Assembly (NCBI RefSeq): GCF_001315015.1 | Contig: NZ_CP012914.1 | Span: 186,001 to 250,000, forward strand | Direction of reading: 5' to 3' | Source: Azospirillum brasilense | GTDB lineage: Bacteria; Pseudomonadota; Alphaproteobacteria; Azospirillales; Azospirillaceae | DNA length: 64,000 bases | Shown: positions 36,248 to 40,462 of the stretch, one piece after another | How positions within the stretch are numbered: position 1 is the stretch's first letter | Layout of the letters: the number at the start of each line of letters is the position of its first letter | Position numbers and translations under genes: made by a program | The notes under the pieces: generated by a model | Seen by the model: only the letters and a program-made list of their open reading frames with translations | Database searches by the model: none | Told to the model about the DNA's origin: nothing

Positions 36248-36529
36248 CTACCCCTCCAACAGCCCCACCGCCTCCCGCAAAATTTCCACCTTCGGGCCGA
36301 ATCGCTTCACCGGGTCGCTGTCCTCGATGAAGCCGATCATCATGCGCAGGGCGTGCGCCACCCGCGGGGCGAGGTCGGGATGCGCCGTCACATGCTGCGC
36401 CAGATGGGCCAGCGCGTCCCGGTAGGGGTGGCCCTCGAATCCCTCCGCGGCGATCGCCTCGAAGCGGTTCGCGTGCTCGATCACCAAGCTGTGGTCCACC
36501 GGGCTGTGGTCGTCGGTCATCGCGCTCAC
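36248..36529 (-). CDS. Small protein of unknown function next to DsrE-like gene
   Basis: A 93-residue soluble, His-rich, helical protein. Not recognised. The start may be GTG 36529, which overlaps the upstream stop as GTGA, or ATG 36520. It ends with KVEILREAVGLLEG, an amphipathic helix. The overlap with the DsrE-like gene suggests co-translation and a shared task. No catalytic motif is evident. Confidence 0.65.
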   Translation of the reverse strand: MSAMTDDHSPVDHSLVIEHANRFEAIAAEGFEGHPYRDALAHLAQHVTAHPDLAPRVAHALRMMIGFIEDSDPVKRFGPKVEILREAVGLLEG

Positions 36530-36963
36530 ACGAAGAGGATCGCGCCGGTCTTCGGCGCGTCGTTCAGAAAGGTGACGACGCCGCCGGTCTTCACCGGCAC
36601 GTCGGGGCGCAACTGCACACCGGCAGGCAGGCCGAGCGCGCGCAGCCCCATTTCGCAGGCCATGACCGTGACCTTCAGCATCACGCAGGCCTCCAGCAAC
36701 TCTTCGAAGCCGGCCAGTCCGTTGGCGGTGAAGGCGGCGTCGCGCTCCGCCGGGCGGCTGCCGTCGTCGGCGGGGTCCAGCCGGTGCCAGCCCGGCGCGC
36801 CGTCGGCGTCTCCGGCCAGCAACGTGTTCAGGGCGCGGCCGGTGAAGAACAGCGTGACCTTGCGGTTGGTCGCCGCCGCGGCGCTGGCCATCACCAGGGC
36901 GTAGTGCACCCGGTCGAAGCCGCCCGCGAACAGGACGATGGACAGGTTTTCAGGACCTTCCAT
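36526..36963 (-). CDS. DsrE-family protein
   Basis: A 145-residue protein with the DsrE/DsrF-like Rossmann pattern: SIVLFAGGFDRVHYALVMASAAAATNRKVTLFFTGRAL at the N-terminus and a middle segment EACVMLKVTVMACEMGLRALGL with two Cys. Members of this fold carry sulfur as a persulfide on Cys or act in sulfur relay. Here Cys in EACVML or in MACEMG are candidates. It lies 23 bases after the MoeB-type gene on the same strand, which supports a sulfur-transfer link by context only. Confidence 0.8.
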   Translation of the reverse strand: MEGPENLSIVLFAGGFDRVHYALVMASAAAATNRKVTLFFTGRALNTLLAGDADGAPGWHRLDPADDGSRPAERDAAFTANGLAGFEELLEACVMLKVTVMACEMGLRALGLPAGVQLRPDVPVKTGGVVTFLNDAPKTGAILFV

Positions 36964-36986: not shown

Positions 36987-37775
36987 TCAGTGGGCGGACA
37001 GGTCGTGGATGGTCGGGTGGGCGCCGCACAGCGGGCAGTCGGGGTCGCGGCGCACCGTGATGCGCTGGAACGAGGCGTGCAGCGTGTCGAGCATCATCAG
37101 GCTGCCCGACAGGCCCTCGCCGATGCCCATGATCTCCTTCAGCACCTCGGTCGTCTGGAGCGAGCCGACGAAGCCGGCCAGCGCCCCCAGCACGCCGCCC
37201 TCGGAGCAGGAGGGCACCAGCCCGCGCGGCGGCGGCTCCGGGAACAGGCAGCGGTAGCAGGGGTGCGGATCGCCGAGATGCGCCTTGAAGGTGGACACCT
37301 GCCCGTCGAAGCGCAGGATCGCCGCCGACACCAGCGTCTTACCCGCGAAGTAGCAGGCGTCGTTTAGGAGGAAGCGCGTGGCGAAATTGTCCGACCCGTC
37401 GGCCACGATGTCGTAGCGGCCGATCAGGTCCAGCGCGTTGTCCTTCGTCAGGCGCATCTTGTGCACCTCCACCGCTACGTCGGGGTTCAGCGCGCGGATG
37501 CGGGCGGCGGCGCTCTCCACCTTCGGAACGCCGAGCGACGACTCATCGTGGATCACCTGCCGTTGCAGGTTGGACAGGTCCACCGTGTCGTCGTCGATGA
37601 CGCCGATGGTGCCCACCCCCGCCGCGGCGAGGTAGAGCAGCAACGGCGCGCCGAGCCCGCCGGCTCCGACGACAAGGACGCGGGCGCGCAGCAGCGCCTC
37701 CTGCCCGACGCCGCCGACCTCCGGCAGGATGATGTGGCGGGAATAGCGGTGGAGCTGGGTGTCGGTGAAATCCAT
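36987..37775 (-). CDS. moeB: ThiF/MoeB-family sulfur-carrier adenylyltransferase
   Basis: A 262-residue enzyme that adenylates the C-terminal Gly of a sulfur carrier such as MoaD or ThiS. ATP-binding GAGGLGAP (from residue 37), DDDTVDLSNLQRQ, catalytic Cys190 (VPSCSEGG) and the zinc pairs Cys173/Cys176 and Cys247/Cys250 are all present. MoeB is the best match by length and lack of a rhodanese domain; ThiF cannot be excluded. It heads the minus-strand unit with the DsrE-like gene and its small partner. Confidence 0.88.
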   Translation of the reverse strand: MDFTDTQLHRYSRHIILPEVGGVGQEALLRARVLVVGAGGLGAPLLLYLAAAGVGTIGVIDDDTVDLSNLQRQVIHDESSLGVPKVESAAARIRALNPDVAVEVHKMRLTKDNALDLIGRYDIVADGSDNFATRFLLNDACYFAGKTLVSAAILRFDGQVSTFKAHLGDPHPCYRCLFPEPPPRGLVPSCSEGGVLGALAGFVGSLQTTEVLKEIMGIGEGLSGSLMMLDTLHASFQRITVRRDPDCPLCGAHPTIHDLSAH

Positions 37776-37848: not shown

Positions 37849-38661
37849 TCAGGCGAGCAGGCTCATCTTGTAGGGGGTGGTCTTCGCCTTGCTGGACGAC
37901 TTGTTCGCGTCCTCCGCCGCCCACTGCTTCAGCCGGGCTTCGCGCTCCCGCATGATCTTGTCGAACGGGCGTTCCTCGCTGTTGTCGTCGGGCGACTTGG
38001 CGACCTTCTGGACGAAGTTCAGCTGATAGGGGATTTCGCCGATCACGTTCTTCGGCGGAACGATCACCAACTCGTACTGGCCGGGTTCGATCTTGAAGCT
38101 GGGCTTCTTCAGCATGTCCCCACCCGACTTGGCCGGGTCCATCGTGTCGCCGGAGGCCACGACCTTGCCCTCCTTGCTCATGAGGGCCCAGCGCGTCAAG
38201 GGAAGGGACATGTTGCCGACGAACTCGCCGCCCTGGGCGACGGTCAGCGTGTGCTTCTGGACGCCTGGATCCTTGCCGACGACGGCGCGGGCGATGCCCT
38301 TCATCTGGGCGCCGGTCCCCACCATCATGATGTTCTGGCGTTCGGTGACGTCCAGCGTGTATTCGCGCTCGTTCACCCCGCGGACGGCCTGAGAGATGAC
38401 CGCCGTGTAGGTGCCGGGGCCGAGCTTCGCGCTGGCCTCCGCCGCCTCGTTCTTCGCCTTGGCCTCGGCGACGACCTTGTTGTTCTGGTCGACGATCTTG
38501 ATGTTGGTGTTGATGTCGGCGATTCGGAAATTGAATTCGCCGGCCTTCGACACCGTGAACTGGCGGTAGTCGGTGGACGCGAGGTTGGAGTCCAATTCGT
38601 TGGTGATGCCGCGGAACTGGAACCAGTTCATCGTCGAGGCATTCGGAATCGCGACGCCCAT
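37849..38661 (-). CDS. Unrecognised 270-residue beta-rich protein with strong promoter
   Basis: No family is recognised with confidence. The protein has no signal peptide, no membrane helix and no Cys. It appears to hold two similar beta-sandwich units (about 20-105 and 110-215), each with phrases like KAGEFNFRIADINTNIKIVD and PGTYTAVISQ, or GGEFVGNMSLPLTRWALM and PGQYELVIVPP, recalling bacterial pre-peptidase C-terminal (PPC) domains. A charged C-terminal helix (SEERPFDKIMREREARLKQW) and a Lys/Ser-rich tail follow. Amino acid use is less Ala/Arg-biased than neighbours. A near-consensus promoter (38784-38812) gives a leader of about 115 bases. Start ATG 38661 or 38631. Confidence 0.75.
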   Translation of the reverse strand: MGVAIPNASTMNWFQFRGITNELDSNLASTDYRQFTVSKAGEFNFRIADINTNIKIVDQNNKVVAEAKAKNEAAEASAKLGPGTYTAVISQAVRGVNEREYTLDVTERQNIMMVGTGAQMKGIARAVVGKDPGVQKHTLTVAQGGEFVGNMSLPLTRWALMSKEGKVVASGDTMDPAKSGGDMLKKPSFKIEPGQYELVIVPPKNVIGEIPYQLNFVQKVAKSPDDNSEERPFDKIMREREARLKQWAAEDANKSSSKAKTTPYKMSLLA

Positions 38662-38783
38662 GGTGGCCTCCCCCGCTGGTCCTGTGCCGTCAGCTCCGCA
38701 TCGTCGGGCGCCCGTGGCGAAAGCCGGGCCATCGCCTGTAACGGCGGAGCCGCGCCGGCCGAAACTCCCGGCGCAGACAGGTT

Positions 38784-38812
38784 AGATTAATAAAATCCAA
38801 TCTTTTTGTCAA
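38784..38812 (-). promoter_or_regulatory. Near-consensus sigma-70 promoter of the 270-residue protein gene
   Basis: On the minus strand TTGACA (38807-38812), a 17-base A/T-rich spacer and TAATCT (38784-38789) are read; the -35 is perfect and the region is one of the few A/T-rich stretches in the window. Transcription would begin near 38777. Confidence 0.8.
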
Positions 38813-38925: not shown

Positions 38926-38963
38926 CCCCTCTCCCATAGCCGCGGGCGGCCGTGGGAGAGGGG
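38926..38963 (-). terminator. Hairpin after cysK
   Basis: CCCCTCTCCCA (38926-38936) pairs with TGGGAGAGGGG (38953-38963) around 16 bases, 9 bases beyond the cysK stop. Followed on the minus strand only by GTTTCC, so termination strength is uncertain. Confidence 0.6.
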
Positions 38964-38971
38964 GGACCGGT

Positions 38972-39931
<960 letters not shown>

Positions 39932-40006: not shown

Positions 40007-40461
40007 TCAAATCGTAAAATCGATGCGGTCTTCGGTCTCGCTCTCCACCCCGGCGGTGCGGGCGCGCAGGCAGAGATCCTCGATGGTGATGTCGTCGAGC
40101 TTCTTCATGCATTCCTCCTGAAGCTCGTTCCACAGAGGGCGCACGACCTTGTGCCCCAGGATGGAACCCGCCGGCTCCTCGATGGGGTCGGTCGCGGTCT
40201 CCATGGAGCGGACGACCTTCACGATCTCGCCCAGCGTGATCCGCCGGCGCTCGCGGGCCAGCCGGTAGCCGCCGCGCGGCCCGCGCACGCCGGCCAGGAC
40301 GCCGTCGCGGACGAGCTGCTGGAGAACCTGCTCCAGATAGCGCTTGGGAATGCCCTGGCGGCGCGTGATCTCGCCGGACTGCACGGGTTCGGTGCCGGCG
40401 TTGTAGGCGATGTCCAGAACCGCCTCGATCGCGAACATCAGCTTCTTGGAGATGCGGAGCA

Positions 40462-40462
<1 letters not shown>
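40007..40462 (-). CDS. Rrf2-family transcription regulator, IscR-like fold without Fe-S cysteines
   Basis: A 151-residue Rrf2 protein. Winged-helix N-terminus with SGEITRRQGIPKRYLEQVLQQLVRDGVLAGVRGPRGGY, the Rrf2 signature. The region 87-104, where IscR has its three cluster Cys residues, has none; the only Cys are 118 and 131. This is more like CymR/CysK-linked regulators of sulfur metabolism than IscR. Located directly before cysK on the same strand and overlapping dut by one base. Control of cysK is inferred from position. Confidence 0.88.

Follow-up and report, generated by a model that had tools for sequence, protein, structure and literature searches.

A nearly genus-specific Azospirillum protein with two predicted PPC-like domains, encoded between cysK and moeB/thiF

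Introduction

As secreted binding appendages, PPC-type domains are familiar above all from secreted proteases; like CBD domains, they are usually extracytoplasmic and typically extracellular. Within a 64,000-nucleotide stretch of the Azospirillum brasilense genome (the window, to which coordinates without a contig name refer), one gene is predicted to encode two such domains in tandem, in a stand-alone protein without a signal peptide that is near-universal in this plant-growth-promoting genus. Does this protein represent a cytoplasmic use of the fold, or is it a Sec-independent secreted binder? A preliminary description of the window had called the gene an orphan and the best single-gene candidate for new biology there. 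The first label holds insofar as the protein belongs to no known family, but it misses that related proteins occur throughout the genus and that a second family is probably a distant cousin. The second is overstated, for the same reasons and because the fold is known. What our comparisons and models describe is a genuine gene, nearly confined to one genus, whose (predicted) fold is known and whose setting is unusual.

Results

The focal gene (37849..38661, minus strand; ORF call) encodes 270 amino acids, arranged as two PPC-like domains and a C-terminal helix. Its ATG start is supported by a Shine-Dalgarno-like site, GGGGGAGG (38667..38674, minus strand), which has a G-rich counterpart at a similar position in most related loci, and by the reading frames of some relatives, which are closed 5 to 10 codons upstream. 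As first described, the protein is free of cysteine and has no recognizable export signal: no hydrophobic, signal-peptide-like stretch was found at its N terminus in a check that consisted of hydropathy alone, with one signal-peptide sequence as the control. The lack of cysteine is only a weak sign of export, since CysK, the next-door protein, is likewise Cys-free in 24 of 24 homologs. No Pfam or NCBIfam model matched above its cut-off, which agrees with the earlier statement that no family is known. A PDB search with the single sequence returned nothing at E ≤ 1, and the best PHROG match (E 0.026) was to a PHROG without known function. No PADLOC model of anti-phage defense matched at E ≤ 0.1.

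A single-protein search of 145 genomes found the focal gene in 44 of the 45 Azospirillum genomes, our own included; one genome, G022, lacks it. One sister-genus genome, G052, carries a distant copy with 25% identity. A 27-row family profile (A1), which contains the G052 row, detected nothing in 36 of the order's 37 genomes from other genera and nothing in 383 further genomes sampled from the class, among up to six candidates scored per genome in the latter set. The 11 loci recovered from a named collection were from Azospirillum and one record labeled Roseomonas genomospecies 6; in a ThiF tree, this record clusters with A. brasilense. Plasmid and phage collections gave no match at E ≤ 0.01, and a plasmid or phage origin was rejected on this result. 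A weak match in the own genome (C3:554186) is, by eye, a repeat-rich histidine-kinase-like ORF and was judged a chance match. Of the eight nearest relatives tested, seven give a dN/dS ratio of 0.20 to 0.36 and one gives 0.54; five farther relatives give 0.41 to 0.73. By these ratios, the gene is under purifying selection. For four neighbor genes compared in two genomes, dN/dS is 0.02 to 0.29, and the dN of the focal gene is 1.3 to 20 times theirs.

The preliminary description had proposed that a PPC-like beta unit is repeated twice, and this is supported by both profiles and models. The profiles made from each half align almost end to end (hhalign probability 97.8 to 98.1%, E about 7e-13, 24 to 26% identity), so the internal duplication is real: judged by their profiles, the halves are homologous and arose by duplication inside the gene. 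Domain 1 (residues 12 to 109; 38335..38628, minus strand) is supported by AlphaFold2 and VIA-align, and domain 2 (residues 110 to 222; 37996..38334, minus strand) by homology to domain 1 and a solo prediction. The AlphaFold2 model of the whole protein, built on a 12-row alignment whose other rows are 73 to 96% identical, is of moderate confidence (pLDDT 69, pTM 0.55) and has two beta-rich domains followed by a helix (residues 232 to 252), with low-confidence ends. In the PDB, Foldseek matches it best (E 1.3e-10) to the tandem collagen-binding domain of ColG, which shares the tandem arrangement of the focal protein; the two superpose poorly over both domains together (TM 0.29, rmsd 16), so that the domain arrangement is uncertain.

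Taken singly, each half is predicted to adopt a jelly roll of the PPC/collagen-binding type. For domain 1, VIA-align gave Z scores of 11.6 with Tk-SP (3afg; 90 residues, 2.0 Å), 11.4 with the ColG CBD (1nqj; 88 residues, 2.4 Å), and 11.2 with the PPC domain of the Bacillus anthracis collagenase (5sv5; 88 residues, 2.3 Å). Domain 2 predicted alone (pLDDT 81) had 5sv5 as its top Foldseek match (E 3.5e-5) and Z scores of 9.4 with 5sv5 (93 residues, 2.5 Å), 8.8 with 1nqj, and 7.3 with 3afg. Enterotoxin C-terminal domains, which have the same general fold, scored ahead of PPC domains for domain 2 (Z 10.8; 104 residues, 2.8 Å); at 12 to 15% identity, we read these matches as a shared fold rather than a functional hint. 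A viral fold library returned generic beta-rich matches only.

At the sequence level, the focal protein had no match to PF04151 at E ≤ 1 and thus stays below the curated cut-off; one of the 27 family members had one, at E 0.0094. In a PDB search with the A1 profile, the ColG domains appeared below significance, at E 0.54, behind an unrelated protein at 0.079. The profile and structure searches that the preliminary description had suggested thus lead to no family above cut-off but to a known fold, predicted to be of the PPC/collagen-binding type. In our models, the protein resembles PPC by fold, yet it lacks the sequence match and falls outside that family. Compared with the known domains (PF04151; ColG s3a-s3b, 5iku and 1nqj; 5sv5; Tk-SP, 3afg), both halves have the same predicted jelly roll at 16 to 19% identity. 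Unlike PF04151 proteins, however, the focal protein has no attached protease, signal peptide, or Pfam PPC match; rather than being the appendage of a secreted peptidase or other secreted protein with a signal peptide (judged by hydropathy), the ORF stands alone, with no match to a catalytic domain. It also differs in being nearly restricted to one genus and in its extra conserved C-terminal helix.

This helix (residues 230 to 252; 37906..37974, minus strand; alignment and AlphaFold2) is the best-conserved region, with a mean identity to the window protein of 0.61 over 25 genus rows; by the same measure, the two domains reach 0.57 and 0.54, the N terminus 0.48, the tail 0.18, and the linker 0.12. 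Residues E239, R240, and R243 are invariant in all 27 rows, G052 included, and the genus motif, KxxRERxxR[LM]xxWA, looks amphipathic by eye. No second copy of the helix was found in the own genome at E ≤ 10. The extreme C terminus is not conserved: it is hydrophobic in some members, G052 among them, and reads ...STKA in other rows. As for type I secretion, there is thus no conserved C terminus, and by eye, no exporter or other secretion gene was recognized beside the focal gene in the inspected loci. Domain 1 is acidic and domain 2 basic in the window protein; head-to-tail electrostatic assembly was considered on this ground and dropped, as the polarity is not kept across the 27 rows.

All genes of the locus lie on the minus strand. 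Upstream of the focal gene are cysK, for cysteine synthase A (38972..39931; TIGR01139, 446.6 bits with a cut-off of 350.95), and the gene of an Rrf2-family regulator (40007..40462; TIGR00738 and PF02082 over cut-off). Downstream are genes for a MoeB/ThiF-family adenylyltransferase (36987..37775; NF004281 and PF00899 over cut-off), a DsrE-like protein (36526..36963; PF13686 over cut-off), and a small conserved protein without a family match at E ≤ 1e-5 (36248..36529). By tblastn, this order is shared by the window and 24 of 25 other Azospirillum genomes, a test that left out 18 further carriers of the gene; the exception, G010, retains just the downstream genes within 4 kb.

We also examined 17 loci without the focal gene, from 16 sister-genus genomes and G022. 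In six of them (five sister-genus genomes and G022), cysK lies directly beside moeB/thiF, with match ends 81 to 178 bases apart; in another locus the gap is 486 bases, three have other ORFs in between, and seven have no nearby cysK match. The simplest reading of these gene orders is that the focal gene was inserted at the cysK-moeB/thiF junction in the Azospirillum lineage, rather than lost repeatedly. G022 and G010 branch early within the genus in the ThiF tree, with modest support, so that loss in G022 and later gain are indistinguishable. In G052, the distant copy has another location, next to a gene that looks rRNA-methyltransferase-like by eye. The junction ORFs of the three sister-genus loci (L114, L117, and L109) are antitoxin/PIN-like, HicB-like, and permease-like by eye and unrelated to the focal gene; given their presence, the junction may be permissive for gene gain.

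One report describes, as the neighbors of cysK-A in A. brasilense Sp7, an Rrf2-type regulator (spelled Rfr2) and, on the downstream side, a hypothetical protein (PMC12811640). These are the same neighbors as those of the focal gene, and the hypothetical protein is very likely its counterpart. In the papers examined, this is the only form in which the gene appears. A literature search combining Azospirillum with "pre-peptidase C-terminal" returned no paper.

A promoter-like TTGACA-N17-TAATCT (38784..38812, minus strand; consensus match and conservation) starts 151 bases 5' of the focal ATG, with the -35 element at 38812-38807 and the -10 element at 38789-38784. The preliminary description had noted a perfect -35, a 17-base spacer, and an A/T-rich island, all of which we find: the island has 37% GC, compared with 69% for the window, and is among the most AT-rich 40-mers there. 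Ranked among the strongest-looking promoters, it indeed ties with three others for second among the five window sites scoring at least 9 of 12, and it is the only one of these with a perfect -35. Calling the -10 good was generous, as it matches TATAAT at three of six positions, and a stricter scan consequently finds no site here. Genus-wide conservation is, on our sequence comparisons, more convincing than the match to the consensus. A TTGAC-N17-TANNNT motif precedes the gene in 42 of 45 loci, with 0.03 of 45 expected from mononucleotide shuffles, and the distance to the start ranges from 80 to 165 bases in relatives; many of these loci are from close relatives, so the 42 are not independent cases. 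Judged by this conservation, the sigma-70-type promoter of the focal gene is real.

The focal gene is probably transcribed separately from cysK, since a strong terminator-like hairpin (38926..38963, minus strand; z -4.8) directly follows cysK and precedes the focal unit. By raw energies, without a shuffle control, the 80-nt folds after cysK range from -30.8 to -54.1 kcal/mol in 25 loci with the focal gene and from -20.2 to -75.3 kcal/mol in 10 loci without it, 7 of the latter at -33 or lower. The hairpin is thus not tied to the focal gene, and these stable folds differ in sequence among relatives with or without the gene. Neither the 5' leader (z -0.5) nor the stretch after the focal stop codon (z -0.85) has structure standing out from its composition. 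High expression had also been expected, but codon adaptation is average: the CAI of 0.735 ranks 16th among 44 window genes picked heuristically, next to a ribosomal-region mean of 0.724, the reference being every picked minus-strand ORF shorter than 330 aa from a single ribosomal stretch, a few non-ribosomal genes included. Very high expression thus finds no support in codon usage. The accessible text of three proteome-related papers (PMC12811640, PMC12826043, and PMC4264754) holds no entry that could be mapped to the focal protein.

Two further proteins of the own genome, of 238 and 233 aa (C2:1215520-1216233 and C2:1149472-1150170), led to a second family, A3, with two or three copies in each of 44 of the 45 Azospirillum genomes and members in 29 of 385 class genomes, own genome and profile members included. 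Aligned with domain 2 of the focal family, its profile scores 90.5% (hhalign, E 1.4e-6), limited to 64 columns; a common origin beyond the shared fold is likely by this comparison. A PDB search with the A3 profile had the ColG collagen-binding domains as its top match, below significance (E 0.0076). Like the focal protein, A3 proteins are signal-less and Cys-free (10 of 10 rows), but their profiles suggest one PPC-like domain between a long N-terminal and a C-terminal segment, whereas the focal protein has two after an 11-residue N terminus.

The two families also differ in their surroundings. Flagellar genes accompany A3 in 13 of 24 stretches of 8 to 13 kb, about half, compared with none of 26 focal loci of 8 to 11 kb, in a test whose flagellar queries were derived from the same A3 stretches. 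The 13 are L161, L162, L163, L159, L160, L104, L164, L167, L102, L107, L108, L170, and L171; the last two were chosen because FliF is near, and leaving them out gives 11 of 22. The two A3 stretches of the own genome (L098 and L099) have no flagellar gene. Pfam confirmed flagellin, FlbT, FlaF, FlgE-like, and FliK identities in three A3 stretches, and A3 is possibly an undescribed flagellar accessory. In L161 and L162, A3 directly follows flagellin-flbT-flaF. A TPR protein is near A3 in 7 of the 24 stretches. By eye, A3 is divergent from or close to ECF-sigma-like genes in L100 and L101, and also in L102 and L108; these may be the A. brasilense rpoE8 and rpoE6 loci, whose products, according to the accessible text of one report, regulate fliC2 and an operon of unknown function (PMC12826043). 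G022 (L126) is the only one of the 45 genus genomes that lacks both the focal gene and A3, and it has two FliF matches, so co-loss of the focal gene with flagella was rejected.

Discussion

The reading that we favor, with about even confidence, is that the focal protein is a non-enzymatic, Azospirillum-specific binder that joins tandem PPC-like domains to a docking helix and forms its own unit. The two PPC/collagen-binding-type jelly rolls would form the binding part, the C-terminal helix would dock to a partner or drive self-assembly, and transcription would proceed as a separate unit from the conserved sigma-70-type promoter, behind the hairpin at the cysK end. A binding protein is the likely overall reading; we infer that it binds rather than catalyzes and that the helix is an interaction element. 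The protein might also leave the cell by a Sec-independent route, as suggested by the PPC fold and by the cousin family A3 in flagellar clusters, although we give export without a Sec signal less than even odds. The cytoplasmic location assigned in the preliminary description is likewise uncertain, given the usual extracytoplasmic place of PPC-type domains.

Two alternatives differ mainly in where the protein would act. It could be a surface or matrix protein exported by a type I or flagellar-type pathway and serving adhesion or flocculation, a tentative proposal that falls somewhat short of an even chance. Export would suit the typically extracellular PPC/CBD domains, the fast evolution of the gene, the flagellar clusters around A3, and the hydrophobic C termini in part of the family; it is harder to reconcile with a C terminus that is not conserved, with inspected loci in which no export gene was recognized by eye and none of 26 has a flagellar gene, and with G022, which has flagellar genes without the focal gene. 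Alternatively, the protein could stay entirely in the cytoplasm as an adaptor or chaperone-like factor, acting with its sulfur-related neighbors (CysK, MoeB/ThiF, and DsrE-like) under the Rrf2 regulator. Such a role would explain why the gene lies between cysK and moeB/thiF in 24 of 25 tested genomes, and it would suit the nature of these neighbors and the lack of a recognized export signal. Yet cysK and moeB/thiF are adjacent without it in five sister-genus genomes and G022, so these neighbors can do without it; its own promoter behind a terminator-like hairpin, its high dN relative to theirs (two genomes), and the placement of the G052 copy elsewhere also make a cytoplasmic partnership unlikely.

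Unrelated ORFs (named by eye) at the same junction in three other genomes would fit a domesticated mobile or phage gene that settled in a permissive spot and has little function now. This is very improbable: the plasmid and phage collections searched hold no homolog, and the gene persists in 44 of 45 genus genomes, has a conserved promoter, and shows dN/dS below 1. Returning to the binder, we can also picture, as a speculation that we would not expect to hold, an undescribed, signal-less, Cys-free PPC-like superfamily in Alphaproteobacteria. Its single-domain branch would be a flagellar accessory, perhaps exported by the flagellar apparatus, and its tandem branch, with the C-terminal helix, would have been captured beside cysK in Azospirillum to become a genus-wide surface or matrix protein of these root colonizers. 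Inactivation of cysK-A is reported to increase both flocculation and biofilm formation by A. brasilense (PMC12811640); because the focal gene adjoins cysK-A, possible effects of that inactivation on the neighboring focal unit deserve a check.
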